From the NCBI RefSeq assembly GCF_024397855.1, contig NZ_CP073343.1:124001-188000 (forward strand): a DNA stretch of 64,000 nucleotides, given 5' to 3'. Both the position numbers and the translations under genes were made by a program. A model generated the notes under the pieces. It was not told the origin of the DNA. It was given only the letters and a program-made list of their open reading frames with translations, and made no database searches. This DNA is from Marinomonas rhizomae (lineage in GTDB: Bacteria > Pseudomonadota > Gammaproteobacteria > Pseudomonadales > Marinomonadaceae). Shown here in pieces: positions 10,477 through 57,939 of this stretch (the stretch's first letter is position 1; each line of letters opens with the position of its first letter).

Positions 10477-11652
10477 ATGTTTCAACTTGTTCTTCTTAGT
10501 AATCAACAGCATATTGATGTTGCTAACCTTTCGTTATCTGCAGAATTAATGGGCTTACCGAGAGAGGTTCCTGTTAGTGTGCAGCAGACGTGTCTAATAG
10601 GCGGTAAGCAAACCGGCTCACGCTTGATCACTTTGACGGTAGGCGATTCTGTGGTTCGCGTTGTGCCGACTCGCGGCATGACAGTGCTTGATGTTGTCAG
10701 AAAAGATAAAGCAGGGAAGGATGTACGCTTTGGTTGGGATTCGCCAGTTAAAGAAGTCGTACATCCAAGCTTTGTTAATCAAGAAGCATCTGGCGGCATT
10801 GGTTGGTTAGATGGTTTTAACGAGATGATCGTACGTTGTGGTTACCAGTGGGCAGGTCACCCAGGCCAAGATGGCGATGAGTTTTTGACATTGCACGGTC
10901 GTATTCAAAACACGCCAGCTGACGAGGTGATTTTAGAAGTTGAGCAAGTGCCACCGTATCGTGTGACCTTGCGCGGCCGAGTTGATGAGAAACGTTTCAA
11001 GTTCACCAATTTCGAGCTGCAAACTGTCTTATCACTGACGCCAGACGAGCCGTATTTGCTGGTTGAAGATACCTTGACTAACAAAGGCAGTTATCCACGC
11101 GAGTACCAAGCTATCTATCACAATAATTTTGCTCAACCGATTCTTGAAAAGGGGGCGCAATTGCATGTTCCTATGGCGGAAGTATCGCCGTTTAATGACT
11201 ATGCTGCGGGTGGTTTGAGTGATTGGAACCAGATGCCAGAACCAACCAAAGATTTTGATGAAATGGTGTTTAATCTTCGTCCTCTGAGTGACGAAAATGG
11301 TTTTTCTCATGCGTTATTGCACAATGCAAATGCAAGCTATGGTATTGAGGTGAGTTATCAAACCGACACCTTGCCAGTGCTTACCGTGTGGAAAAATACG
11401 GACACACTGGAACAAGGTTACGTGGTGGGTATCGAGCCGGGCACCAGCTTCGCTTATAACCGTTCTTATCAGAGAGAGTTAGGTTTGGTGCCGACGATTG
11501 CGGCTGGTGAATCGAAACACTTTGTGGTGCGTTTTGGTTTATTAACGGATGAAGGTCAGGTCCAAGCCAGTGTGGCGAATATCGCCAAATTACAAAGTGA
11601 TCACGCGCCTAAGGTGATGTCTACGCCGATTGTGCGCCTTGGTGAAGCATAG
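10477..11652 (+). CDS. DUF4432 family protein (aldose-1-epimerase-like fold)
   Basis: A 391-aa cytoplasmic protein whose sequence fits DUF4432, a branch of the galactose-mutarotase-like superfamily. Recognisable stretches are VVPTRGMTVLDV near 67-78, GGIGWLDGFNEMIVRCG near 107-123 and the C-terminal GYVVGIEPGTSFAYNR. Family members are found next to sugar or polyol catabolic genes, and their reaction is generally not established. RBS CGGAGC precedes the start. It lies 110 bp after the hydrolase operon on the same strand, so co-transcription is possible but not shown. Its 3' end overlaps the convergent gene by 32 bp. Confidence 0.8.
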   Translation: MFQLVLLSNQQHIDVANLSLSAELMGLPREVPVSVQQTCLIGGKQTGSRLITLTVGDSVVRVVPTRGMTVLDVVRKDKAGKDVRFGWDSPVKEVVHPSFVNQEASGGIGWLDGFNEMIVRCGYQWAGHPGQDGDEFLTLHGRIQNTPADEVILEVEQVPPYRVTLRGRVDEKRFKFTNFELQTVLSLTPDEPYLLVEDTLTNKGSYPREYQAIYHNNFAQPILEKGAQLHVPMAEVSPFNDYAAGGLSDWNQMPEPTKDFDEMVFNLRPLSDENGFSHALLHNANASYGIEVSYQTDTLPVLTVWKNTDTLEQGYVVGIEPGTSFAYNRSYQRELGLVPTIAAGESKHFVVRFGLLTDEGQVQASVANIAKLQSDHAPKVMSTPIVRLGEA

Positions 11653-45537: not shown

Positions 45538-47055
45538 CTAATCAATCACATGCAAGGCGCGGTATTCGTCGTAGGCGAATTGGTCGGTCATGCCGCTGAT
45601 GTAGTCTTGAATTAAGCGACAACGAAAGTAAAACTCCCACGTATCGTCGCTAATGGGTTCAAGTGTGCTGCCTTTGAAATGAGTTTTGAAGTCAGTCAGA
45701 GTTTTGTCTTCGATGGCGGCTCGATAGGCACGAATGTGTTTTTGTGAGAGTTTTCTAAATACTCTCGCCTCGTATGCGGGTGCTTTTATATCGTTGTCTA
45801 GAACCTTGTTGAAGCTGGCTCTGTCTAGTTTGAGTAATGGGGCATAAATATCCAGTAGTCCATTGATGATTCGGTAGCCTTGTAGCTCTTGTCCTTCTAC
45901 TTCAGGCGTGCTGAAGGCGTATTTTCGAGCCACTGCTTTGAGTGTTTCGACCACGGCATGATGATAGCTACCATCCTCAATTAGGGCGTTGTTAAAAGAG
46001 CCGTGGAATACGGCATCGATATTGTCGATAAAACGTTTACAAGCGTATTTCGGCAGTTCTTTATTGATGCCTACACGCAGTCCAACAAAGAACATACTGT
46101 CGATTTTGTTTTGTCGATACATGGATTCGGCAGAGGCAATAATCTCATCCATCATTTGATTGACTGGCAGTTTGAAATCATCTGATTGGCAAGTATTGAT
46201 AAATTCTTCACGTAAAATGTTTGGTAAATCCGTAATAGATAAAATGCCTTTCTCTTCGGCATCTTCGATATCAGCCACACCATAAGAAATATCGTCAGCG
46301 GCTTCCATTATGTAAGCGAAGGGGGAGCGTCTTCCTTCTTGAATATTTAACGCTTCTCTTAATGCTTTGATAAAGGGCGCTTCACTCAAATAAAAGCCGA
46401 CCTTTTTTTGTAGGTAATTTTTGTCTGGCTTGGAAGTATCGCCACGACGAGTGTATTTTATAATGCCAGACAGTTGGCTATAGGTGAGGTTGAGCGCAAG
46501 CAAACTGTGTACTAAGCGAATGGCTTGAGCATTACCTTCAAAGTTACAGATGTCACGTTCTAGAGCGGTCAGTTCGTCGTTGAGTTTGATGTCTGAGTCG
46601 TCAGTATCTGGCATAAAACGCTTAAGAAATTGGCTTGTATGTTTCTCAAACCATTTGATCATGGTGTCTTCACCAAAGTGACCGAAGGGCGGGTTGCCCA
46701 CATCATGCATTAGACAAGACATTTCGACGATGGATTCAAATTGGCGGTCTAATCCAGTCAGTCCATATTCCTCTAGCTTTCCCCTGTCTTTCGATAAACT
46801 CTGAAACACCAACTGGCTAATGTATCGCCCAACTTGCTGTACTTCCATCGAATGGGTCAAACGACTGCGTACGGCGGCATTGCGCTCAAGAGGAAAGACT
46901 TGGGTTTTCTGCTGCAAACGACGAATAGCAGCGGAATTTATAATGCGCCCTCTGTCACTTTCGAAGTCGCCCTGTGGCGCTATTTTTGTGTCGTCAGAAT
47001 TTCGGCTGTTATGAAGGCGGTTAGAACGAATTTTTTGTCTAAAATTAATTGTCAT
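45538..47055 (-). CDS. dgt: Deoxyguanosinetriphosphate triphosphohydrolase
   Basis: A 505-aa dGTPase that cleaves dGTP to deoxyguanosine and triphosphate. [20 protein letters not shown] and [19 protein letters not shown] are nearly the E. coli sequence. The HD-domain metal ligands are His in RLTHSMEV and His-Asp in [15 protein letters not shown], with a later Asp in [15 protein letters not shown]. The start at 47055 (MTINFRQKI) aligns with E. coli Dgt; the open frame continues to 47124 without homology. It is divergent from the GAK-like locus and heads a set of four closely spaced genes. Confidence 0.95.
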
Positions 47056-47194
47056 GAAGTACATCCTTGATCTGAAAGCATTGCTTATCATTCGATAGTA
47101 ACGATATTTTGGACGACAAGTCATGTTTTAAGTGATGGTATTTTAAACAATGAAGCGGATGGTTCGCTTGTTTCTCATGCAGTTAGGTGTTGAG

Positions 47195-47212
47195 TTGTCA
47201 CAGAACTGTCAT
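47195..47212 (+). promoter_or_regulatory. Pho box upstream of the GAK-like locus
   Basis: TTGTCAC-AGAA-CTGTCAT: two heptamers with 11-bp period, matching the PhoB consensus CTGTCAT-N4-CTGTCAT at 12 of 14 heptamer positions, the two differences being the common C/T variants. A TATAGT -10 hexamer at 47234-47239 lies 21 bp further, which is the standard 10-bp gap plus one more helical repeat. It faces the kinase gene starting at 47269. Confidence 0.65.
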
Positions 47213-47268
47213 CTTGATGCTTTCTACTGTCTGTATAGTCAAAGGTAAAAGTAGTAGGGAAAAATGTT

Positions 47269-48954
47269 ATGCCTTCACCCCCAGTTGTGGCGACTCTGCA
47301 AGAGCATGTGTCTTTTCTCTTGCATGAGGTCGAAACACACTGTCATCTCGTTGAGCTTTTTTTTACATCAGGTTCTGTGGAGTTATTGTCGAGTATTCGC
47401 GGCCGCCGTGGTTATGTGCAAGCGCTGCGTGAAAAAGCAGACATTGAAACGGCACGTTTATTAGAGCGTCGCAAAGCCAATACCACTTTCCATGCGCAAG
47501 TCAGTGGCATGCATACCTTGGTGATAGCCCTTGAGATGTTGACCAAGCATTGCTTCGATTGTGTCCGTGAGGGCACGCTAGAGGAAGCCTACGAGCATCC
47601 AACAGGGCAAGAATGCCGTAAGTTGGTGAAACGTATCAGGCGTGCTTTGCGCTTAGTGAAAGTGGGCGTGAGCGACAATCGTCGACGGACAGGCATCAAG
47701 CTAGGACGACGTACGCATAAGTTGCTGGCGAGCTATAACGAGCTGCAAGCGTTAACTTTGCAAGCGAAGCTCGACTTGAGCGATGACCAATTGCGCGCTG
47801 CGATTCTAAGCAATGTCAGTGTGAAACGCCTGATAGAACAATTAGGCGTGGTGGCTGAAGCCTTGATTAAAGCGGATCTTGGCCAAGTGGCGACATTGCA
47901 AAATTACCCCCATTTATTGGACAGCGCGACCAACCTAAATTATGACCTGCGAGATTTGAAAGTTCGCCGCTTGGCGTTGACTCGCTCTGGCAGTGCGATT
48001 GCGGCGATTACTCATAAGGATGAATCTGGTAAAGAGGTGTTGGCGGTTTACAAAGAAGGCGATCGCGACAAGATTGAAGAAGAAGTGGCTGGCGTGAATC
48101 AATGGCGCAATATTGATCCTAGATTAGCCCCTAGCGTTCTTTCTCAAACAGGCACATCTCAAGTCAATGGGAAGAGCGATGACAGCAATGAGCAATCGTC
48201 TTTATTGATCGAACATATTCCAGGAAAGACCTTGGAAGCTTTGTTACTCGATGGTGACCAAGAGGGCACACAAGCCGCGCTAAAAGTCTTATTTAAAACC
48301 CTGAATCAAACGTGGAAAGCCAGTCTAACGCCGGAGTCTTGCTCGGCGAATTTCATGAAACAACTGCAAAAACGCATTGGCGACAGTCGTAAGGTTCATC
48401 CTGAATTTTTTAAAGACGAAGAACGCATTTGTGGTTACACCAGTCTAAGCTTTGATGAGTTAGTTCGTCGCGTAGCGGTAAACGAAGCCCAATGGCGAGC
48501 GCCTTTTTCCGTGCTGACCCACGGGGATTTTAACGTCGATAATCTGATTTACGATGACGCGGAAAAACGTGTGTATTTTATTGATCTGCATCGCGCGTCT
48601 TACTTTGATTATGTTCAGGACTTGTCGGTGTTAATGGTCTCGATTTACCGCTTGCAAGTATTAAGTGGTGAGACGCGAACGCAGATGATGGAAAGCGCCA
48701 AAGAGGTGTACCGCTTTGGTCGACGCTTTGCTGCTCGCCAACAAGATGCCACGTTTGAGGTGCGCTTAGCCGCCGGGCTTGCTCGCTCTTTTGCGACTTC
48801 GACACGATTTATTTTTGATAAAAAGCTCGCATCTCGAATGCATTTACGTGCTCGATATTTGCTGGAGCGCCTAGCAAAGCTGTCGTCAGAAGAACGCACC
48901 TCTGAACAAGCCCAAACATTTACTTTACCGCTTAAGGAGCTTTACGTTGAATAA
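47269..48954 (+). CDS. Helical domain + APH-fold kinase, first gene of GAK-like locus
   Basis: A 561-aa cytoplasmic protein. Residues about 1-220 are all helical and basic, of unknown type (a PhoU- or CHAD-like bundle is possible). Residues about 235-500 form an aminoglycoside-phosphotransferase/kinase fold: candidate ATP Lys in AVYKEGD near 262, catalytic loop HGDFNVDN at 418-425 and metal-binding Asp in FIDLHRAS at 439. Its target is unknown. RBS AGTAGGGA precedes the ATG and a Pho box lies 57 bp upstream. The stop overlaps the ATP-grasp start, so the two are translationally coupled. It is not one of the core GAK families I can name and may be an added kinase. Confidence 0.75.
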   Translation: MPSPPVVATLQEHVSFLLHEVETHCHLVELFFTSGSVELLSSIRGRRGYVQALREKADIETARLLERRKANTTFHAQVSGMHTLVIALEMLTKHCFDCVREGTLEEAYEHPTGQECRKLVKRIRRALRLVKVGVSDNRRRTGIKLGRRTHKLLASYNELQALTLQAKLDLSDDQLRAAILSNVSVKRLIEQLGVVAEALIKADLGQVATLQNYPHLLDSATNLNYDLRDLKVRRLALTRSGSAIAAITHKDESGKEVLAVYKEGDRDKIEEEVAGVNQWRNIDPRLAPSVLSQTGTSQVNGKSDDSNEQSSLLIEHIPGKTLEALLLDGDQEGTQAALKVLFKTLNQTWKASLTPESCSANFMKQLQKRIGDSRKVHPEFFKDEERICGYTSLSFDELVRRVAVNEAQWRAPFSVLTHGDFNVDNLIYDDAEKRVYFIDLHRASYFDYVQDLSVLMVSIYRLQVLSGETRTQMMESAKEVYRFGRRFAARQQDATFEVRLAAGLARSFATSTRFIFDKKLASRMHLRARYLLERLAKLSSEERTSEQAQTFTLPLKELYVE

Positions 48955-49873
48955 GCCGAAAATTGGGGTCATTGGCATCCCGGGAAAATGGTCTACAGAA
49001 GTATTGGCGGATCGCCTTGAAGAGCGTACAGGCTTTCGCGCTGTGATCGATATGAATCAAGTGGAATTGCGTTTAGATACTAATCAACTGATATACCAAG
49101 ACTTAGATTTGATGGCCTTAGATGGTTTGATCATCAAGAAGATCAGCGAAGTCTATTCACCTGCGACGGAAGACCGCATTCATTTGTTGTCTTATGCCGA
49201 GCGAGCGGGTGTTAAACTGTTTAGCCCAACGGCCAGTGTTGGTAACTTGGTGAACCGTTTAAGCGGCACCTTGGCGTTGCAGCAGGGCAATATCCCCATG
49301 CCGAGAACGCGCATCACAGAAAATCCAGAACAGGCTTTTGCTACCGTGAGAGAGTTTGGCTCCGCGATTTTAAAGCCGCTGTATTCCACCAAAGCCCGCG
49401 GCATGATTATGTTGACCGAAGACGACAGTGACGAATTTGTTCGCAACGCGTTGGAAGAGTATCGTCAGAGTCAGTCCATTTATTATATTCAGCAAACGGT
49501 GAAATTAGATGGCCGAGATTTAGGCATGGTGTTTGTTGGCGGTGAATACCTTTGTACTTACGCGAGGGTCGGCAATAAAGATTCTTGGAACACCACGATT
49601 AATAGCGGTGGCAAGTATGAGAAATTTGAGCCCGATGCCGAGCTGATTGAATTGGGCCGCCGTGCGCAATCTTGTTATGACTTGAGTTTTACGACTGTAG
49701 ATATCGCCCTGACCGATCAAGGTCCAGTGGTGTTTGAAGTGTCTGCATTTGGTGGCTTTAAAGGCGCTTTAGAAGGTTGCGATATCGACGCCGCCAGTGT
49801 GTATGCGGACTATATTTTGCGAGAATGTGTTGTACAAGAAGGCGTATTGCAAAAGAAGGAGATGGCATCATGA
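48947..49873 (+). CDS. RimK-like ATP-grasp enzyme, GAK system type
   Basis: A 308-aa ATP-grasp ligase-type protein. IGVIGIPGKWSTEVLADRLEE at the start, LVNRLSGTLALQQGNIPMPRT, ILKPLYSTKARGM (ATP-binding Lys) and VDIALTDQGPVVFEVSAFGG (metal-binding Glu) follow the RimK/GAK-associated pattern. Such enzymes join a carboxylate to an amine using ATP. The start is a TTG: AAGGAG lies 7 bp upstream, and the codon lies inside the end of the preceding gene. Its last bases overlap the HprK-related gene (ATGA). Substrates are unknown. Confidence 0.82.
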   Translation: MNKPKIGVIGIPGKWSTEVLADRLEERTGFRAVIDMNQVELRLDTNQLIYQDLDLMALDGLIIKKISEVYSPATEDRIHLLSYAERAGVKLFSPTASVGNLVNRLSGTLALQQGNIPMPRTRITENPEQAFATVREFGSAILKPLYSTKARGMIMLTEDDSDEFVRNALEEYRQSQSIYYIQQTVKLDGRDLGMVFVGGEYLCTYARVGNKDSWNTTINSGGKYEKFEPDAELIELGRRAQSCYDLSFTTVDIALTDQGPVVFEVSAFGGFKGALEGCDIDAASVYADYILRECVVQEGVLQKKEMAS

Positions 49874-50955
49874 TTAAAACCCTATTGAACTTGCCCCATG
49901 TAAACGAAGCGCTAAGTCATTGTGACGAAACGATTCGACTTCACTTTGCCGACTTATCGGTTATCGTGCATTCCAATGAAGGCATGTTGTTAGCTGGTAT
50001 TGCTGATTATTATCGTAGTTATTTGAAGGCCGAGGCTCACACCACAACGTCTTTGAACTTGTATGTGATGGAGCAAAACGTCGTTGGCGATGAGCTTGAT
50101 TGGTTAAATGTGCCACGTGAAGAAGGTAAACAAGGCCGTAAAGAAGGTTATCTTGATGTGGCTGGTGGACGTTGGATTAAAAAGTTCAAAACCGGTATGG
50201 CGTTTTTACAGCGCCCAGATCATGCGGTTGCTGTGGGGCCCTGCGCCTCTAACTTGGCACAAATCATCAACTTCATTAATAATCAGTTTTTGAATCATTA
50301 CTTACGCGAAGGCTTCACCTTGGGCCACGCTTCAGCGTTTTGTGTAAATGGTGAAGCGACAGCCATCGCCGCTGGATCGGGCGGTGGCAAGTCCACCTTG
50401 ATGCTGCGTTGTCTGGAAAATCCTGAGCGTGATTTTCTCACCAACGATCGCATTCTGTTTAAAAAGACTGAGCAAGGTACGCAAACCATCGGCTTGGCTA
50501 AACTGCCGCGAGTAAACCCAGGTACCTTGTTACATGCCGAGCGTTTACGTCACATTTTGCCAGAAGCGCGCCAGCAAGCCTTGCGCCAAATGCCGCAAAG
50601 TGAGCTGTGGTCTTTGGAAGAAAAATACGATGTTCAAATCGAAGATGAATACGGCCCAAACCGTGTTTGCCTGGCAGGGAACTTGTCTCGTCTCATTATG
50701 TTGGACTGGTCATTAGATAGCTCTGAGGCGACACAATTAGAGTCGGTTGATTTGTCGTCTCAGGCCGAAGTTATCGAAGGGTTGCGTAAACGTCCGGGGC
50801 CGTTTTATCAAGATCAGAGCGGTGAGTTTGCCGACCTAAACGCCATTGACTCTGTGGCGCACTATTGTAGTGAACTGGCGAATGCCGACGTTTATCGACT
50901 CACTGGCAAGATCGACTTTGATCGTGCTTATGAATTAATCGCTGCGTTGGATTAA
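49870..50955 (+). CDS. HprK-related kinase B, GAK system type
   Basis: A 361-aa protein related to HPr kinase. The P-loop is AAGSGGGKSTLMLR, with GSGGGKS at 169-175, preceded by FTLGHASAFCVNGEATAIA as in the HprK-related group, and LTNDRILFKK resembles the catalytic loop. HPr kinases phosphorylate a Ser on a protein; here no HPr is nearby, so the target is unknown, and the amphi-Trp protein or the ATP-grasp product are candidates only by context. It starts within the stop of the ATP-grasp gene, with AAGGAG upstream. The frame is open to 49777 but the ATG at 49870 is clearly the start. Confidence 0.82.
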   Translation: MIKTLLNLPHVNEALSHCDETIRLHFADLSVIVHSNEGMLLAGIADYYRSYLKAEAHTTTSLNLYVMEQNVVGDELDWLNVPREEGKQGRKEGYLDVAGGRWIKKFKTGMAFLQRPDHAVAVGPCASNLAQIINFINNQFLNHYLREGFTLGHASAFCVNGEATAIAAGSGGGKSTLMLRCLENPERDFLTNDRILFKKTEQGTQTIGLAKLPRVNPGTLLHAERLRHILPEARQQALRQMPQSELWSLEEKYDVQIEDEYGPNRVCLAGNLSRLIMLDWSLDSSEATQLESVDLSSQAEVIEGLRKRPGPFYQDQSGEFADLNAIDSVAHYCSELANADVYRLTGKIDFDRAYELIAALD

Positions 50956-51006
50956 ATGCCTCGCGTCTGATTAATGGCTCTTTTAATAGAAAAGGTAACC
51001 AATACA

Positions 51007-52332
51007 ATGCAAAGCCCCATCCCAACCGTCACAGACCGCCCTCATCATGCTGACATTATCGCTCGCTTACCGAGCGAGTGGACCGCTTGGCCTCGGGATG
51101 AAAGCTCGGTAAATAGTCATGTTTTAGAAGCAAACAAAACGCCGTCTTTATTCAAGAAAAATAAGCTGCGCTGGCCAAAGCGTTCCGTGGTGTTTATTTC
51201 TGATCCTCATGCAGATGCAGTAGCTTTTGAGGACTCTTTGATTGCCGCTGGCGTTGCAGAGCGTAAGAAGAAAGTGGGCTTGGGGCATCTTTCCCTAACG
51301 AAAAAGGGCAAGCAGTCTGAGATTATCGTCGGTGGTGATTGTTTGGATAAAGGGCCGAGTAATCTTGAGTTACTGCGCAGTGTAAAGCAGCTTTATAAAC
51401 TGAAAGCGCGTGTCACCTTGTTGGCCGGTAATCATGATTTGCGTTTACTGATGGGGTTATTGGCGTTGGCGCGTAAAAAAGACGTGGGCAACCAGCACTT
51501 TTTCGTGCGTATGGGAAAAAAAGTCGTGCCTTTATTTCGTGAAGTCTTCGATGAATATTTAGCGGATACGAAGTGGGATAAGAAAATTCCTGACGAAGAC
51601 GAGTGTCGAGAGTTGTTATTCCCCGGAGACGACTGGTTTAAAGCGTTTCCATTTCACGCGGCAGGCTTTTTGACTGCAGAAGGCATTGATCGTGAAGTGC
51701 GTAAGATGGAATCGAAAAACCACAGTTTCGAGAAGCACTGCTTGTCTGCAGGCTTGAGTCTACGACAAGTGTACGCAACCTCGTTGAAATGCCAGCAGTT
51801 ATTTTTGCACAAGAAGGGCGAATTCAATTGGTTTTTCCGTAAGATGGAATTGGTTGCAAAACGCGGTTCATTCTTGTTTTTGCATGCAGGTTTAGATGAC
51901 AGCATGGGGCAAATGCTACTGAAAAGCGGCACCAAGTATGCGAATAAAGCCTTCCACCAGAATTTGAAGCGTCGTGATTTGTTTAGCTTTTACTACAGCT
52001 CTATCGCCAACACGTTTAGAACCAAATACCGCGACGCCGACCTACCATTGACCCATCGAGGCGTTAAAGCCATTCACAAAGCCGGTATTCATGTTGTGGT
52101 ACAAGGTCATATCAACCGCCAGCAAGGCCAGCGTATTACTATTAAAAAAGGCTTGGTGCATGTGGAAGCGGATATCACCTTAGACTGTCATTCTCGTACT
52201 GCCGAGGGGTTAAAAGGCCACGGTATTGGTGCGACCTTGATTGGTAAAGACACTGGCGTTGTTGGGCTAAGCTGCGATTACCCGACCGCAAAAGTCATTT
52301 CGGCCGAAGAACTGCAAGGAATCTATGGATAA
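51007..52332 (+). CDS. PPP-type metallophosphoesterase in GAK-like locus
   Basis: A 441-aa cytoplasmic metallophosphoesterase. The metal motifs are complete: SDPHAD (Asp66, His68), GGDCLDKGP (Asp111, Asp114), AGNHDLR (Asn142, His143), HAG near 298 and QGHINR near 365. GD-x-x-D-x-G-N-H-D order is that of Ser/Thr PPP-family phosphatases and diadenosine tetraphosphatases. With two kinases in the same operon, a reversible phosphorylation cycle is an attractive inference. The start at 51007 has AAAAGG upstream; 50974 lacks a ribosome site. It ends 5 bp before the amphi-Trp gene. Confidence 0.8.
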   Translation: MQSPIPTVTDRPHHADIIARLPSEWTAWPRDESSVNSHVLEANKTPSLFKKNKLRWPKRSVVFISDPHADAVAFEDSLIAAGVAERKKKVGLGHLSLTKKGKQSEIIVGGDCLDKGPSNLELLRSVKQLYKLKARVTLLAGNHDLRLLMGLLALARKKDVGNQHFFVRMGKKVVPLFREVFDEYLADTKWDKKIPDEDECRELLFPGDDWFKAFPFHAAGFLTAEGIDREVRKMESKNHSFEKHCLSAGLSLRQVYATSLKCQQLFLHKKGEFNWFFRKMELVAKRGSFLFLHAGLDDSMGQMLLKSGTKYANKAFHQNLKRRDLFSFYYSSIANTFRTKYRDADLPLTHRGVKAIHKAGIHVVVQGHINRQQGQRITIKKGLVHVEADITLDCHSRTAEGLKGHGIGATLIGKDTGVVGLSCDYPTAKVISAEELQGIYG

Positions 52333-52337
52333 GCATT

Positions 52338-52607
52338 ATGAAATCGAAAACAGAATTTAAATACGAAGCCTTATTGGATGCCGACGATATTCAAGATGTC
52401 CTAAAAGCCCTGTCAAAAGGTTTGTCAAAAGGCAAACTGGAATTCAGCGAAGAAAAAGAAGGCACGTTAACGCTTGATCCAAAAGGTCTAATGCGTCTAA
52501 AAGTCAGCGCCTCGGAAGACGAAGACAGTCAGCAATTTGAAGTCAAAGTTCGCTGGGAAAAACGCCCAAAGCGACTTAATAAAACTGCTCCTAATATTTT
52601 GTCTTGA
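52338..52607 (+). CDS. Amphi-Trp domain protein
   Basis: An 89-aa acidic protein of the amphi-Trp family, typical of GAK-linked and related loci: KTEFKYEALLDADDIQDVLK (helix), GLSKGKLEFSEE, GLMRLKVSASED and the C-terminal strand FEVKVRWEKRPKR carrying the family Trp. No enzymatic motif is seen. GGATAAGC precedes the ATG. It is the last gene of the locus and is followed by a terminator for the convergent gene. Possible roles are a phosphorylation target or an adaptor; neither is shown. Confidence 0.85.
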   Translation: MKSKTEFKYEALLDADDIQDVLKALSKGLSKGKLEFSEEKEGTLTLDPKGLMRLKVSASEDEDSQQFEVKVRWEKRPKRLNKTAPNILS

Positions 52608-52691: not shown

Positions 52692-53501
52692 TCAGTTAAT
52701 ACCTGTCATATTGTGAAGTGAGCCTTTAATCCCCTTTGCAGATACTAAGATAGGGTTGCCTTTAAGCAGGCCTTCATCTGATAAAAAATTATTGGTTGAG
52801 CCGCCAGCTTCATCCACCATAATGAGTCCAGCTAGGCAATCCCATGAGTTGATGTGAGGTTCGTAGTAGCCAATCAAACGACCAGCAGCTACATAGGCCA
52901 GCATGAGCGCGCCAGAACCGTTGCGAATAAACATCCCACCTTGGTTTAACAGCTTATCGATGAAGTTTACACACAAGGATGCTGAAACTCGGTGAGACGT
53001 TCCTAACCCCATCACGCCTTCTTGTACTGAATTTACTGCTAATGTTGCGACTTTTTTGTCATTTACAAAGCAGCCTTTTCCAGCCACCGCGCTAAATAGT
53101 TCGTCACTGTTTGGGTCAAAGATCAGGCCACAGGCAATTTTATCGTTCACCATGAGTGCAACAGAAATACACCAAGAGTGCATACCATTGAGAAAACACG
53201 CGGTACCATCGATTGGGTCAATGACCCATAAATACTGGTTGTCACCTTTGGTAATACCTTGCTCTTCTCCAAGAAAGCCATCTTGCGGGAAGTGCTCTTG
53301 TAAGCCTTTAATAATGGTGATTTCCACATTACGGTCTGCGATGCTGACTACGTCTTGTGGTTCCATTTTGGTTTCGACGATTAACTTTTCTCGATTACGA
53401 AAATATTCCAGAGCTTGAGCCCCAGCGATTTTGATCACTTTCTCAGCATGGTTAAATCGGTCGAGAACCGTTTGATCTATTAGGTTATGAGCTAAAAACA
53501 T
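52692..53501 (-). CDS. Inositol monophosphatase-family phosphatase
   Basis: A 269-aa metal-dependent phosphomonoesterase. Metal ligands are visible: Glu79-Glu80 in FLGEEQG, Asp95 and Asp98 in VIDPIDGTACFLNG, and Asp in the C-terminal NSWDCLAGLIMVDEAGG. The family covers inositol monophosphatases, PAP phosphatases and FBPase/histidinol-phosphatase-like enzymes. It is the last gene of the LacI-controlled AfuABC-like importer operon, 17 bp after the ATPase, so its substrate is likely the imported sugar phosphate; this is inference from context. Confidence 0.86.
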   Translation of the reverse strand: MFLAHNLIDQTVLDRFNHAEKVIKIAGAQALEYFRNREKLIVETKMEPQDVVSIADRNVEITIIKGLQEHFPQDGFLGEEQGITKGDNQYLWVIDPIDGTACFLNGMHSWCISVALMVNDKIACGLIFDPNSDELFSAVAGKGCFVNDKKVATLAVNSVQEGVMGLGTSHRVSASLCVNFIDKLLNQGGMFIRNGSGALMLAYVAAGRLIGYYEPHINSWDCLAGLIMVDEAGGSTNNFLSDEGLLKGNPILVSAKGIKGSLHNMTGIN

Positions 53502-53518
53502 GAGGTTGACTCTCCACT

Positions 53519-54592
53519 CTAAGCTGTCTTAACTAACGCAAGACCGCGATTTGAAAACGCAATAGACACATCGGAACCGACGGGAATTGCTTGCTCAACA
53601 CGATAGTCGATGATGAATAAGCTACCCACTTCGGAATCAACATCGTATTGCATTTGGTTGCCTAAATAAGTGGCTCGTCTAACGCTACCTTTGAGTCCAG
53701 TGGACTGCTGGTCTCGCATGGATAAACGCACAGAACTTGGATGTACTGCTAATTGCACACGGCCTTTGTCAAATCCTCGTTGCGGTAAAGAGCAGCTCAA
53801 CGAGCCAACGGCAACTTCTGCGGTCTGTCCGTCGGTGGTAATGATGTCTGCCTCGATAAGATTGGCGTCACCAATAAAATCAGCAATAAAGCTTGAAGCA
53901 GGTGCTTCGTAGAGTTCACGTGGGCTACCTTCTTGGGCAATGACTGAGCGATTCATTACGATAATGCGATCCGATACAGCCAGCGCTTCTTCTTGATCGT
54001 GAGTCACATAAACTGCAGTTAACCCTATTTTTTGCTGAAGTTCGCGAATTTCTTCCCGAACATGGCGACGTAATTTGGCGTCTAGGTTTGATAGCGGTTC
54101 GTCTAGCAGAAGCACTTCAGGTTCTAGAACTAATGCTCGAGCCACAGCAACACGTTGTTGCTGTCCGCCGGATAGTTCACTCGGGTAACGCTGTCCGTAG
54201 CCTGCCAAGCCAACCAGCTCCAATCCTTCTTCGCTCTTTTCCTTGGCTTCGATTTTATTTACACCGCTGGCATTTAGGCCATAGGCGACATTTTCGGCCA
54301 CCGTCATATGCGGAAATAAAGCATAGGATTGAAACACCATACTGACGTCTCTATCTGTGGCAGGTAGATGCGTGACGTCTTTATTCCCAATCATTATGCG
54401 GCCGGAGGTTGGATGCTCTAACCCTGCCAACATGCGCAAAGTGGTGGTTTTCCCACAGCCGCTTGGTCCTAATAACGTGACAAGATTGCCTGGCTCTATG
54501 GTGAAAGACACGTTATCAATGGCAGTAACATTGCCAAAGGTTTTAATGACGTTTTCAAAGCTCACTGAGCCTGATTTGTAATGGAGACTCAT
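53519..54592 (-). CDS. AfuC/FbpC-like ABC ATPase
   Basis: A 357-aa ATPase. Walker A GPSGCGKTT near 38-46, Q-loop MVFQSYALFPHM, signature LSGGQQQR near 137-144, Walker [12 protein letters not shown] and switch His in YVTHDQEEA are intact, with a C-terminal TOBE domain. Its start overlaps the permease stop by 4 bp. It belongs to the ferric/sugar-phosphate-type (FbpC/AfuC) group and energises the permease encoded upstream. Confidence 0.9.
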   Translation of the reverse strand: MSLHYKSGSVSFENVIKTFGNVTAIDNVSFTIEPGNLVTLLGPSGCGKTTTLRMLAGLEHPTSGRIMIGNKDVTHLPATDRDVSMVFQSYALFPHMTVAENVAYGLNASGVNKIEAKEKSEEGLELVGLAGYGQRYPSELSGGQQQRVAVARALVLEPEVLLLDEPLSNLDAKLRRHVREEIRELQQKIGLTAVYVTHDQEEALAVSDRIIVMNRSVIAQEGSPRELYEAPASSFIADFIGDANLIEADIITTDGQTAEVAVGSLSCSLPQRGFDKGRVQLAVHPSSVRLSMRDQQSTGLKGSVRRATYLGNQMQYDVDSEVGSLFIIDYRVEQAIPVGSDVSIAFSNRGLALVKTA

Positions 54593-56823
54593 GCGTGTTT
54601 CTCCTTAAGAGAAGGGCCGGAAGTAGCCGATGATTGATTTAAGTGAGAGATAGCGTTGGTACGTCTTAAACGACGCTCTCCCACAAATAGATTGATTGCG
54701 ACAATGGCTGTTAGCATCACTAAAATCAGCACACTACAGTAGGCGATGGCAATGCCATACTCACCGTTTTCGACCAAGCCGATAATGTAAGACGTCGCCA
54801 TATTGTGATCCGCACTAACGAGAAAGATGACAGCACTGACGGAAGTAATAGCTCGTACAAAGCTGTAGACCAAAGCGGCAATAATGGCTGGTCGTAGTAG
54901 AGGAAGTATGACGCGTCGGAAGGTCATTAAGCTGTTTGCGCCTAAGGTTAAAGAGGCTTCGTCTAGGCTTTTGTCTAACTGGCTCATAGCGGCGATACCA
55001 CCACGTACACCAACAGGCATATTACGGAAAACAAAACAGATAATCAGGATCACGCCTGTGCCAGTAAGCTCTAGCGGTGGTACGTTAAAGGCAAGGATGT
55101 AACTGATACCAATCACTGTACCGGGAATGGCGAAGCTCAACATGGTGCCAAACTCAAAGGCATTTTTCCATTTGAATTGTTGACGTACTAACAAGTAGGC
55201 GGTCAGCAAACCAACGAGGGCAGTAAACGGTGCAGCGATGGCGGAAATGCTTAGCGTCGTCCATAAGGAATCCCATGCTGCGCCTTCCCAGATCACACCA
55301 AATTCGCCCCATCCGACAGAAAAAGCGTCTTGATAATGCTGCAAGGTAAAGCTGTTATCGTAACCCCAGTTTTGTACAAAACCACCGAACATGATCATGC
55401 CGTAAATGACGACGGTTAACGCAGCCCAAGGTAAAGCCGTCATATAACAGGCGAGCTTCATACCATGGTTTAGGCCCATGTAAGCGCCAGAATCCGCCTT
55501 GCCTGTGACCGTGGTGTAGGATTTTTTGCCGATCCAATGACGTTGAAGGAAAAAAGCACTCAAAGTAAAGAATAGTAAGAGTATGGCTAAGACCGCAGCG
55601 TAACCTTGATCGTTTTGTGCGCCTACAATGGCGAAAAATATCTCTGTAGACAGCACATCAAAGTCGCCACCAAGTACCATTGGGTTACCAAAGTCCGCCA
55701 AACTTTCAATGAAGGCGAGTAAAAATGCATTAGCTAAACCAGGGCGCATTAATGGCAGAGATACATTGATAAAGGTTCGCCAACGATCGGCACGTAAGGT
55801 CTGAGAGGCTTCTTCCATAGAAGGGCTAACGCCTTCCACCACGCCAATCAATACCAAAAAGGAAATCGGTGTAAAAGATAATACTTGAGCAAGTAATACA
55901 CCTGGCATGCCATAGAGCCATCGGCCAGGTTCGATATTAAAGACATCGGCGAAGAATTGTGTCACTACGCCAGAACGTCCGAATAATAGAATCAGCGCCA
56001 AGCCAATAACAAAGGGTGGCGTGATAATAGGTAAAACAGTGAGCAGGCGTAAGGATCTTTTCCAGCGAAACCCAGTGCGGGTGACGACCAGCGCAAAAGA
56101 TAAGCCAAGCAGGGTTGTCAATGTTGCTGTCAGAATTGCCAGCGTTAGGGAATTCCACGCAGTACCGCAAGCGTAGCCACCGCTGAGGCAGGACAAGGAC
56201 CAAATATTATCGCTAAAGAACTTACCGAAAAACGCTGTTGGAGCAAACATGCCGTCATTGTTCATAAAGGCGCTAATTAATACTTGGCTGACAGGGAAAA
56301 ATACAAATAAGCCAACCAACGCGACGATCAAACCAATGCTTCCGGTGACAAAGACATCACCTTTCAAAAAGCCTGTAGCAGCAAGTCCAGTGGTTAAAAG
56401 TATCAGGAAGGACAAACCACATAGCATGGCTCCATAGCCAAAACCATACTGTTGGTATTCTAGTTCGCCAAATAAGGATTCCAGTCCTGCAAATTGCCAA
56501 CCACTGACGCCAATGGCGAAACCTTGGCCCATCATATAGATAAGGCCAAAAGCGCCAGAATAGATTAGATAGCGGCTGTATCTAGGGTCGCTTTTCGTTA
56601 ATGAAATTAGGCGCAAAGGTGCAATTAAAGGTAAGGCTAATGGCAGTAACCAAAGTTTATCACCAAGCAAGCCTTGCAGAATTGCAGGGGCGTAGTAGAG
56701 GTCAGTAGGATAACCGTCGGTTAACCAGACAAATGACCAAAAGCCATCTTCGAGCAGATACCACGGCATCAGCAAAAAACCGATCCAGCCGAGTAACAGC
56801 CACGGAATAAAAGAGTGTTTCAC
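54589..56823 (-). CDS. AfuB-like two-module ABC permease with N-terminal extension
   Basis: Inner-membrane permease of 744 aa, longer than the usual 500-580 of FbpB-type proteins. About 170 N-terminal residues add several hydrophobic helices before the first transport module. Docking loops are SMEEASQTLRADRWRTFIN in the first module and SLDEASLTLGANSLMTFRR in the second. Large permeases with such an extension are known in the AfuABC group, which imports sugar phosphates rather than iron. It follows the binding protein gene after a hairpin at 56852-56878. Confidence 0.88.
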   Translation of the reverse strand: MKHSFIPWLLLGWIGFLLMPWYLLEDGFWSFVWLTDGYPTDLYYAPAILQGLLGDKLWLLPLALPLIAPLRLISLTKSDPRYSRYLIYSGAFGLIYMMGQGFAIGVSGWQFAGLESLFGELEYQQYGFGYGAMLCGLSFLILLTTGLAATGFLKGDVFVTGSIGLIVALVGLFVFFPVSQVLISAFMNNDGMFAPTAFFGKFFSDNIWSLSCLSGGYACGTAWNSLTLAILTATLTTLLGLSFALVVTRTGFRWKRSLRLLTVLPIITPPFVIGLALILLFGRSGVVTQFFADVFNIEPGRWLYGMPGVLLAQVLSFTPISFLVLIGVVEGVSPSMEEASQTLRADRWRTFINVSLPLMRPGLANAFLLAFIESLADFGNPMVLGGDFDVLSTEIFFAIVGAQNDQGYAAVLAILLLFFTLSAFFLQRHWIGKKSYTTVTGKADSGAYMGLNHGMKLACYMTALPWAALTVVIYGMIMFGGFVQNWGYDNSFTLQHYQDAFSVGWGEFGVIWEGAAWDSLWTTLSISAIAAPFTALVGLLTAYLLVRQQFKWKNAFEFGTMLSFAIPGTVIGISYILAFNVPPLELTGTGVILIICFVFRNMPVGVRGGIAAMSQLDKSLDEASLTLGANSLMTFRRVILPLLRPAIIAALVYSFVRAITSVSAVIFLVSADHNMATSYIIGLVENGEYGIAIAYCSVLILVMLTAIVAINLFVGERRLRRTNAISHLNQSSATSGPSLKEKHA

Positions 56824-56851
56824 GATCGATACTCCAAACAGTAACTTGAAT

Positions 56852-56878
56852 CTCTGCTGGGACTAAGGCCCAGCAGAG
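56852..56878 (-). promoter_or_regulatory. Intercistronic hairpin between binding protein and permease genes
   Basis: CTCTGCTGGG (56852-56861) and CCCAGCAGAG (56869-56878) form a perfect 10-bp stem with a 7-nt loop and no T run. Its position, just after the SBP stop, is typical for an element that stabilises SBP mRNA or reduces read-through. Confidence 0.65.
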
Positions 56879-56907
56879 CTCAGGAAAACCAAGGTGCGTC
56901 TGAATGA

Positions 56908-57939
56908 TTAACGAGGTAGAGATTTGATCTCATTGTCCCACCGTTGCAGCAAATGTTGGCGCGTGTCCGCAGAGCCGTATTTGGCAAAGTCGTAATCGAT
57001 CAGTTTTAGCGTATCGAAGTCAAGCGCGCCCGGTGGCGTTGTCGCTGACTTATTGGATGGTACTTGGTAAGCATTGGCTTTTTCAGCCATGGTTTGAATA
57101 TCTGGGCGCAAGGCAAACTCAGCCCAAATTTTCGCTTCTTTCAGATGGCGAGCACCTTTGACGATACTCATTGAGCCCACTTCATAGCCTGTACCTTCAC
57201 AAGGTGCGACGGCTTTAACTGGGTAGCCTTTTTTCACTTGTTTTACTATGTCGTGAATAAAAGTAATGCCGATGGCGGTTTCGCCATTGGACGCGGCTTT
57301 AATCGGTGCCGAGCCAGATTTTGTATATTGGTTAATGTTTTTATGCAGTTGAGCAAGGAAGTCGAAAGCCTGGTTTTCCCCCATCATTTGTACAAAGGTT
57401 GCTAGAGCCGTGTACGAAGTGCCAGATGAGTTCGGGTTGGCTATCTGCACCTCCCCTTTGTAAATCGGCTTGGCTAGATCTTTCCAGCATTGTGGGGCAG
57501 GTAGCCCTTTGGATTTTAGGATATCTTCATTGTAGCCAAAACCCAGTGCACCAGCGTAAACCCCGACTGTGCGGTAACCCGATACTTTCGCTTGATTTTG
57601 TGCCCAATCACGTAGGTTGGGAAGGGCTTTAGGCTTGTAAACTTGAGTGAGTTTTTCCGCTGCGGCTTGAAGATGAGGATCGCCAGTACCGCCCCACCAA
57701 ATATCAATTTTTGGATTTCGAGCTTCAGCACGTAGCTGTGCATAAGCTTCGCCAGAACTCTTACGAATAAGAGAGACATCAATACCAGTTTCTGCTTCAA
57801 AGCTTGTTTCCATCAAGCTACACCAATCGGTATCTGTGGAGCAAAGAACATTTAGCTTACCTTTGGCCATAGCGGGTGCAGCGCAGAATGCCGCCGCTGT
57901 CGCGAAAGCAAGGCTAAGGATATATGGAGAGTTTTTCAT
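56908..57939 (-). CDS. AfuA-like ABC importer binding protein
   Basis: Periplasmic binding protein of 343 aa with signal peptide (MKNSPYILSLAFATAAAFCA, cleavage likely after AMA). The mature start KLNVLCSTDTDWCSLMETSF, then ETGIDVSLIRKSSGEAYAQL and IWWGGTGDPH, resembles AfuA, a member of the ferric-binding-protein family shown to bind hexose and heptose phosphates. Two Cys (LCST and DWCS) may form a disulfide. Tyrosine pairs of true ferric-ion binders are not evident. GGAGG precedes the ATG and a strong palindromic operator lies just upstream. Confidence 0.85.
   Translation of the reverse strand: MKNSPYILSLAFATAAAFCAAPAMAKGKLNVLCSTDTDWCSLMETSFEAETGIDVSLIRKSSGEAYAQLRAEARNPKIDIWWGGTGDPHLQAAAEKLTQVYKPKALPNLRDWAQNQAKVSGYRTVGVYAGALGFGYNEDILKSKGLPAPQCWKDLAKPIYKGEVQIANPNSSGTSYTALATFVQMMGENQAFDFLAQLHKNINQYTKSGSAPIKAASNGETAIGITFIHDIVKQVKKGYPVKAVAPCEGTGYEVGSMSIVKGARHLKEAKIWAEFALRPDIQTMAEKANAYQVPSNKSATTPPGALDFDTLKLIDYDFAKYGSADTRQHLLQRWDNEIKSLPR

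Follow-up and report, generated by a model that had tools for sequence, protein, structure and literature searches.

A stretch of 64,000 nucleotides from the Marinomonas rhizomae genome (4.37 Mb in one contig, NZ_CP073343.1; positions 124,001 to 188,000 of the forward strand), hereafter the window, carries a five-gene cassette encoding a PhoU-APH kinase, an ATP-grasp ligase, a kinase of the PEP carboxykinase (PEPCK)/HprK type, a PPP-family phosphatase and an amphi-Trp protein. It is near certain that these five genes form one conserved, co-inherited operon. The cassette is real, conserved and uncharacterised, and its new features are a PhoU domain in the first protein, a Pho-box-like operator ahead of the first gene and a PEPCK-like fold in the HprK-related kinase B (HprK-B). 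To our knowledge, no role has been assigned to the proteins of the GAK system, which are annotated by NCBI models. We tentatively read the cassette, with a probability of about 0.4, as a compact version of that system, a phosphoryl-transfer and ligation module that would be induced by phosphate starvation.

The five genes lie on one strand and are tightly packed. Their place, shared direction and family assignments, as given in a preliminary description of this locus, agree with the open reading frame (ORF) coordinates and with the family scores. In window positions, the operator, promoter element and genes are as follows.

47195 to 47212, forward strand: Pho-box-like operator TTGTCAC-AGAA-CTGTCAT, a pair of direct repeats with 11-bp spacing; 57 bp lie between its end and the start codon of the first gene.
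47234 to 47239, forward strand: -10-like hexamer TATAGT, 21 bp downstream of the Pho-box-like operator.
47269 to 48954, forward strand: fusion of a PhoU domain (about residues 1-225) to an APH-fold kinase (about residues 261-466) with HGDFNVDN and FIDLHR motifs.
48947 to 49873, forward strand: GAK ATP-grasp ligase, RimK/MptN/LysX-like (TIGR04356), with E-x-S where the metal-ligand motif is usually E-x-N.
49870 to 50955, forward strand: HprK-related kinase B, a PEPCK-like P-loop kinase.
50974 to 52332, forward strand: PPP-family metallophosphoesterase, weakly ApaH-like, with a probable true start at 51007.
52338 to 52607, forward strand: amphi-Trp protein (TIGR04354), predicted to have one helix and four strands, with a conserved C-terminal tail.

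The kinase and ligase genes overlap (48947/48954), the ligase and HprK-B genes share an ATGA overlap at 49870-49873, and the spacer between the phosphatase stop and the amphi-Trp start is 5 bases, an arrangement as in one operon. The phosphatase probably starts at 51007, as suggested by homologues of 441 amino acids (aa). Three GAK models exceed their curated NCBIfam cut-offs, namely grasp_GAK (455.5 versus 300), HprK_rel_B (283.1 versus 200) and amphi-Trp (63.3 versus 31), and the three are linked in one operon. The GAK affiliation proposed in the preliminary description is thereby upheld, as the profile search that it called for places all three models well above threshold, leaving no objection on the ground of low scores. 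Pfam cut-offs are passed by the APH domain (PF01636; 40.2 versus 23.2) and Metallophos (31.5 versus 21.5), and the window amphi-Trp protein scores 24.7 with the Pfam Amphi-Trp model, slightly below the cut-off of 27. No model match to the XXXCH protein was found among the five cassette proteins, and no genome-wide search for it was made. Marinomonas foliarum is the closest named relative, its ATP-grasp protein being 97% identical. Strong purifying selection acts on all five window genes, with ratios of nonsynonymous to synonymous substitution rates (dN/dS) of 0.004-0.057 wherever computable against loci L035, L036, L038 and L040; dS exceeds 1 in about half of the computed comparisons, and the ratio is uncomputable for HprK-B against L040 and for all five genes against L048.

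Gene content was read by phmmer at 83 loci, comprising the window, two plasmid loci and 80 named loci, assigned by record title to Gammaproteobacteria and Alphaproteobacteria, that were retrieved with the ATP-grasp alignment and found with the patterns [VI]VFEVSAF and IGV[IV]G[ITL][PA]GK. HprK-B is present at all 83, the APH kinase at 82, and PPP and amphi-Trp at 81 each, joined by optional members: a histidine phosphatase (73), CofD (34), Nudix (23) and SixA-Nudix (17). The order APH, ATP-grasp, HprK-B, optional histidine phosphatase, PPP, amphi-Trp is violated at none of them, with amphi-Trp as the last operon gene in 81/83. Gene absences in L098, L106 and L110 fall at contig ends, and the one real exception among the named loci is in Tropicimonas (L108:8825-10529), where PPP and the histidine phosphatase are missing and amphi-Trp directly follows HprK-B. 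Four genes counted as present are split into at least two frames (APH in L078, HprK-B and PPP in L076, PPP in L040). Just the five genes occur at nine loci, the window among them, so the window holds a minimal version of the cassette.

Because these loci had been chosen by their ATP-grasp gene, a separate survey was made in which each of the four large-protein models was searched on its own in 398 evenly drawn genomes of the phylum, at E 1e-50 for ATP-grasp and E 1e-20 for HprK-B, PPP and PhoU-APH. ATP-grasp was matched in 14 genomes (13 over cut-off), HprK-B in 16 (14 over cut-off), PPP in 15 and PhoU-APH in 13. Sixteen genomes hold any of the four proteins and 13 of these carry all four on one contig, which indicates that the four are inherited as a unit and that neither PhoU-APH nor PPP is an addition. 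The PhoU-APH fusion model was found solely together with the cassette. Among the three incomplete sets, those of G192 and G234 are cut by contig ends and the third, in G087 (L187, G087:C41:1-12000), is a broken locus: its HprK-B match runs past the contig start and, on the other side, its ATP-grasp match breaks at profile position 114 in mid-contig (15.5 kb), with no PhoU-APH after it. The G087 locus reads as a rearrangement or an assembly chimera. The preliminary description had treated the APH kinase and PPP phosphatase as extras; they are instead standard members, at 82/83 and 81/83 GAK loci, and co-occur with ATP-grasp and HprK-B in 13/16 genomes. Its guess that kinases, phosphatase and ligase act together appears right alongside this conserved linkage, which also disposes of the doubt, raised there, that the genes might not be linked in related genomes.

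Within the genus, the cassette is present in 27/35 genomes and absent from 8. Outside the cassette, clustering of neighbouring genes finds a neighbourhood that is little conserved; ORFs shorter than 90 aa were excluded from this clustering, hence amphi-Trp is undercounted, and flanking clusters were not annotated singly. The GAK ATP-grasp gene is also found on five plasmid records from Rhodobacterales-type hosts, with 53-55% identity. In both plasmid loci read (L033, L034) the whole cassette is plasmid-borne, and the plasmids are predicted to be non-mobilizable.

The N-terminal domain of the first protein is, by family profile, PhoU. The profile matches four PhoU sequences in the PDB along most of their length (best 4q25, E 4.9e-10, profile positions 7-221), and 12/18 members of the kinase family match Pfam PhoU (best 4.1e-13). 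Where it differs from those structures is that the cassette protein fuses PhoU to an APH kinase, in whose C-terminal half the kinase motifs are intact, with HGDFNxDN and FIDLHR invariant in 18 homologues. The APH fold was correctly recognised in the preliminary description, which took the rest for a helical N-terminus and overlooked the PhoU domain.

The ATP-grasp protein scores closest to the RimK, MptN and LysX ligases, all below cut-off (MptN 141 bits, rimK_fam 103 bits, and LysX 88 bits against its own cut-off of 275.6), and matches RimK (2.9e-18) and LysX relatives among PDB structures. It departs from RimK at the metal-ligand motif, where the cassette enzyme has E-x-S-A-F-G-G and aligned RimK chains have E-x-N. 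The motif FEVSAFGG is present in 14/14 loci checked; as the named loci were retrieved by a pattern that includes this motif, the E-x-S claim rests on these 14 loci, found by the family profile.

HprK-B is predicted to fold like PEPCK along its whole chain. The model comprises the two-domain PEPCK fold over its full length together with the kinase-domain fold of HprK, and the full-length HprK chains 1knx and 1ko7 align with it at residues 148-362 only. The chain carries H-A-S-A followed by GSGGGKST; the corresponding PEPCK pattern, H-C-S-A, is close to the former. HprK-B thus shares a PEPCK-like fold and the P-loop kinase core with the PEPCK/HPr kinase superfamily, differing in a sequence identity of only 8-15% in aligned rows; Pfam PEPCK gives no HprK-B match, and Pfam Hpr_kinase_C matches 1/25 members (E 0.0099).

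The phosphatase is of the PPP family, whose metal ligands lie in the motifs D-x-H, GD-x-x-D, GNHD, H and GH. The residues D77, H79, D122, D125, N153, H154, H304 and H379, which make up these motifs, are invariant in 18 homologues. Its match to ApaH structures in the PDB is weak (E 0.0017 across 54 positions).

Conservation of the amphi-Trp protein was assessed over 81 sequences, including that of L050, which was excluded from alignments. Phe7 is invariant, Trp73 is present in 80/81, position 9 holds His (66) or Tyr (15), and Ile or Val occupies position 87 near the C-terminus in 79/81, within a short conserved tail that follows a variable linker. None of the Ser or Thr positions is invariant, and the sequences end in different residues. 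With moderate confidence (predicted local distance difference test score, pLDDT, 76.3), the structure is predicted as one helix plus four strands. The L050 copy (L050:12037-12264) has a frame apparently disrupted after about residue 28. We infer that amphi-Trp would be a binding or scaffold subunit rather than an acceptor. The preliminary description had suggested it as the protein being modified, an idea that these sequences leave so far unsupported and weaken.

A Pho-box-like operator sits ahead of the cassette in Marinomonas and relatives, as judged by its repeats and spacing. At the window locus, a pair of TGTCA[C/T]-type repeats with 11-bp spacing precedes a -10 box, as in the Pho regulon. 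The Pho-box consensus pattern CTGTCATNNNNCTGTCAT has 11 hits in the window, only that at 47195-47212 with 2 mismatches. In 18/82 cassette promoter regions it reaches 12/14 matches, where 0.25 are expected from shuffles. Under a strict definition, TGT[CA]A[TCG] twice in tandem with 11-bp spacing, the repeat is found in 25/82 promoter zones (18,122 bases), always on the sense strand and never on the opposite strand there, compared with 10 sites on both strands of the remaining 2.68 Mb, giving the promoter zones about 370 times the background density. The reversed control of the tandem pattern occurs 0 times in promoter zones and twice in all. Of the 25 strict-box loci, 23 have a -10-like hexamer at an offset of exactly 39 bases from the first base of the box; the runner-up among offsets 20-59 has 5. 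The spacer letters of the box vary across loci, and the repeats and their spacing are constant. PhoB most likely binds this tandem operator; we consider control by PhoB likely for Marinomonas and its close relatives and unproven for other lineages. Taken as a whole, control of the cassette by phosphate is probable.

The same pattern was calibrated in the host genome on 28 of its 30 sites, leaving out the cassette's own and one of two overlapping phoX sites. An ORF start lies within 250 bp downstream of 10/28 of these other sites; 6 of the 10 were scanned and 3 are phosphate genes.

phoX, downstream of two overlapping Pho-box-like sites (PF05787, 416 bits).
phnS2, downstream of a Pho-box-like site (TIGR03261, 547 versus 392.75).
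PstC-like gene, downstream of a Pho-box-like site (30 bits, short of the required 196, in a frame truncated where the locus ends).

At L038:10073 and L039:10073, a further Pho-box-like site, CTTTCATCTTACTGTCAT, lies between HprK-B and PPP, at the place left empty by the absent histidine phosphatase gene. Pattern hits at about locus positions 10,500-10,600 and near 11,470 in L062/L063 fall within the histidine-phosphatase gene, and the operator counts exclude them.

The CofD-like partner, described earlier as absent, is indeed not at the locus; the same genome does encode a CofD_rel_GAK protein (483.4 versus a cut-off of 340) at 596083-597174, about 420 kb from the cassette and unlinked to it. 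All 35 genomes of the genus match CofD_rel_GAK, 34 above cut-off and one copy split by stops, and these include the 8 cassette-free genomes; outside the genus, 2/11 cassette-bearing genomes have a match and 9/11 none. Where CofD is linked (34/83 loci), it stands in front on the opposite strand. Being unlinked here, kept without the cassette and rare outside the genus, CofD is accessory rather than core. The CofD_rel_GAK alignment resembles UPF0052 structures (5e-33), which we take to be YvcK, and matched no F420 CofD structure at E 0.01. Near the CofD/YvcK-like gene (G000:C1:596083-597174; L127:7988-9184), a gene for an ATP-dependent zinc protease (PF05618) lies about 1.8 kb away on the other strand, and coordinates place a long RimK-type ATP-grasp gene about 3 kb from the CofD/YvcK-like gene in 11 further genomes of the genus. 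Compared with the GAK system as defined by TIGR04354, TIGR04355, TIGR04356 and TIGR04357, the present genome has three models over cut-off in one operon and CofD_rel_GAK elsewhere; it differs in that CofD is not core, whereas PhoU-APH and PPP, which have no GAK name, are.

Apart from CofD, the optional members of larger cassettes are phosphoryl-group hydrolases, namely SixA-Nudix, a PGM-type histidine phosphatase and Nudix. In the 17 loci with SixA-Nudix, the gene for this two-domain fusion lies between HprK-B and the histidine phosphatase (for example, L062:9981-10940 and L091:10033-11010), and its best Nudix matches in the PDB are diphosphoinositol polyphosphate phosphohydrolases (DIPP). The SixA RHG motif is lost in L101. 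No histidine phosphatase was found in the host genome at E 1e-5, in a search that had no positive control and so shows little. These larger cassettes with histidine phosphatases and Nudix domains, like the PhoU domain and the operator, had been overlooked in the preliminary description.

On the reading of the cassette as a phosphate-starvation module, its proteins would be produced when phosphate is short, upon binding of PhoB at the tandem TGTCA[C/T] operator with its -10 box at a fixed distance downstream. The PhoU domain may gate the APH kinase, through either phosphate status or contact with the Pst/PhoR machinery. The two kinases would then phosphorylate one low-molecular-weight acceptor, to which the ligase would add an amino acid. 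PPP would undo or trim the phosphates, a task presumably shared in larger cassettes with the PGM-type histidine phosphatase, the SixA domain and the DIPP-like Nudix domain, and amphi-Trp would bind or scaffold rather than accept. The missing invariant Ser/Thr in amphi-Trp makes a small molecule the more likely target, and for the kinase, ligase and phosphatase step this small-molecule reading stands slightly below even odds. A far bolder extension, which we regard as improbable, would give marine and halophilic bacteria, in GAK, a second and independent circuit for responding to phosphate. At low phosphate, PhoU-gated and PEPCK-like kinases would make a messenger or phosphate store that is pyrophosphorylated and capped with an amino acid, to be removed by ApaH-like, histidine-phosphatase and DIPP-like Nudix enzymes, as a bacterial counterpart of inositol-pyrophosphate/SPX signalling.

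Several observations weigh against the starvation module. Genome-wide, CTGTCATNNNNCTGTCAT shows hardly any enrichment when up to 2 mismatches are allowed (30 sites versus 26 for the reversed pattern), and with such near-equal counts single hits mean little; most of the 28 other genome sites are not ahead of a phosphate gene. By record title, the 25 strict-box loci belong to 16 Marinomonas (including the window), 7 Halomonas or Vreelandella, 1 Maribrevibacterium and 1 Marinobacter, and, being related, are not independent events. The strict operator is missing from 57/82 cassette promoters, and the tandem pair is present in 2/10 testable cassettes of the phylum set, one of them through a relaxed letter, so the cassette may be under phosphate control in certain lineages alone. 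For the TGTAAG/TGTAAC variant in one Halomonas-type genome, 0/7 other sites lie upstream of a recognisable phosphate gene, as judged by eye. The window copy of the kinase fails to reach the Pfam PhoU model, so the PhoU assignment rests on the family profile, and Foldseek TM-scores of the HprK-B model versus PEPCK are only about 0.4-0.5. Finally, amphi-Trp has a conserved His/Tyr9 and a conserved C-terminal tail, as would suit a protein substrate.

This last point bears on the protein-modification circuit of the preliminary description, in which the kinases phosphorylate and the ATP-grasp enzyme extends amphi-Trp and the phosphatases reverse this, comparable to RimK acting on S6 and SixA on a phosphohistidine protein. 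Amphi-Trp closes the operon in 81/83 loci, residue 9 is His or Tyr in 81/81, the Ile/Val87 tail follows its variable linker like a docking tail (79/81), and larger cassettes contain SixA domains. We nevertheless consider such a circuit unlikely, given an amphi-Trp with no invariant Ser/Thr and a variable last residue, an HprK-B that is PEPCK-like and matches HprK only over its kinase domain, and a Nudix domain whose best structural relatives, of the DIPP type, act on small polyphosphates. Another reading is a pyrophosphate or dinucleotide messenger, a diphosphorylated signal of phosphate status that the cassette would make and degrade in analogy to inositol pyrophosphate signalling. The PhoU domain, the DIPP-like Nudix fused to SixA, the weakly ApaH-like PPP, the histidine phosphatase and the Pho-box-like operator are all consistent with a messenger of this kind, which is improbable all the same, as SixA-Nudix is present in 17/83 loci only and not at the window locus, and the ATP-grasp protein falls in the amino-acid ligase branch, with no PPIP5K-type kinase among its matches at the limits used.

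Biosynthesis on a carrier, as with LysW/LysX/LysZ, would have amphi-Trp as the small acidic carrier, ATP-grasp as the enzyme that loads it and a kinase that activates the load. The LysX score of the ATP-grasp protein (below cut-off), its matches to LysX structures and a small partner encoded in the same operon speak for it. The C-terminal glutamate of LysW is fixed, whereas amphi-Trp has no conserved last residue and hence no fixed C-terminal acceptor; neighbour clustering, in which flanking clusters were not annotated singly, identified no reductase or aminotransferase family with cross-genus linkage. We therefore disfavour a carrier, giving it a very small chance. Slightly more remote still is an anti-phage or conflict system, suggested by a patchy, self-contained enzyme cassette (13/398 genomes over cut-off) in a little conserved neighbourhood and by a TCAD9 match in 9/18 kinase homologues. 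The five proteins have no significant PADLOC match (best E 0.013, for amphi-Trp), two PADLOC families are each matched by 1/18 kinase homologues (E 0.0013 and 0.0098), a Pho-type operator would be unexpected for defence, and 27/35 genomes of the genus carry the cassette.

Flanking the cassette, a dGTPase gene at window positions 45538-47124 on the reverse strand (NF003429, 639 versus 405) is divergent from it. Downstream, an inositol-monophosphatase-like gene and a PhnT2/U2/S2-like ABC transporter (window positions 52692-57939, reverse strand) face it, all below named cut-offs.

In the open-licence part of PubMed Central, the names "GAK system", "amphi-Trp" and "HprK-related kinase" had no literature match, and the TIGR accessions of GAK had matches only through "XXXCH"; combinations of the cassette's protein families with one another, or of PhoU with phosphotransferases, likewise had none; the titles and abstract openings of papers there on the Pho regulon, ATP-grasp and marine bacteria contained nothing on this locus. 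The definition of GAK is corrected by the present analysis: PhoU-APH and PPP belong to its core and CofD is optional. Phosphate scarcity shapes marine microbial life, and the pairing of a PhoU-kinase fusion with a Pho-type promoter makes the question of function answerable by one growth experiment. If the cassette comes on at phosphate depletion, it would represent an unrecognised enzyme set, carried by 27/35 genomes of the genus, of relevance to marine phosphorus biology.

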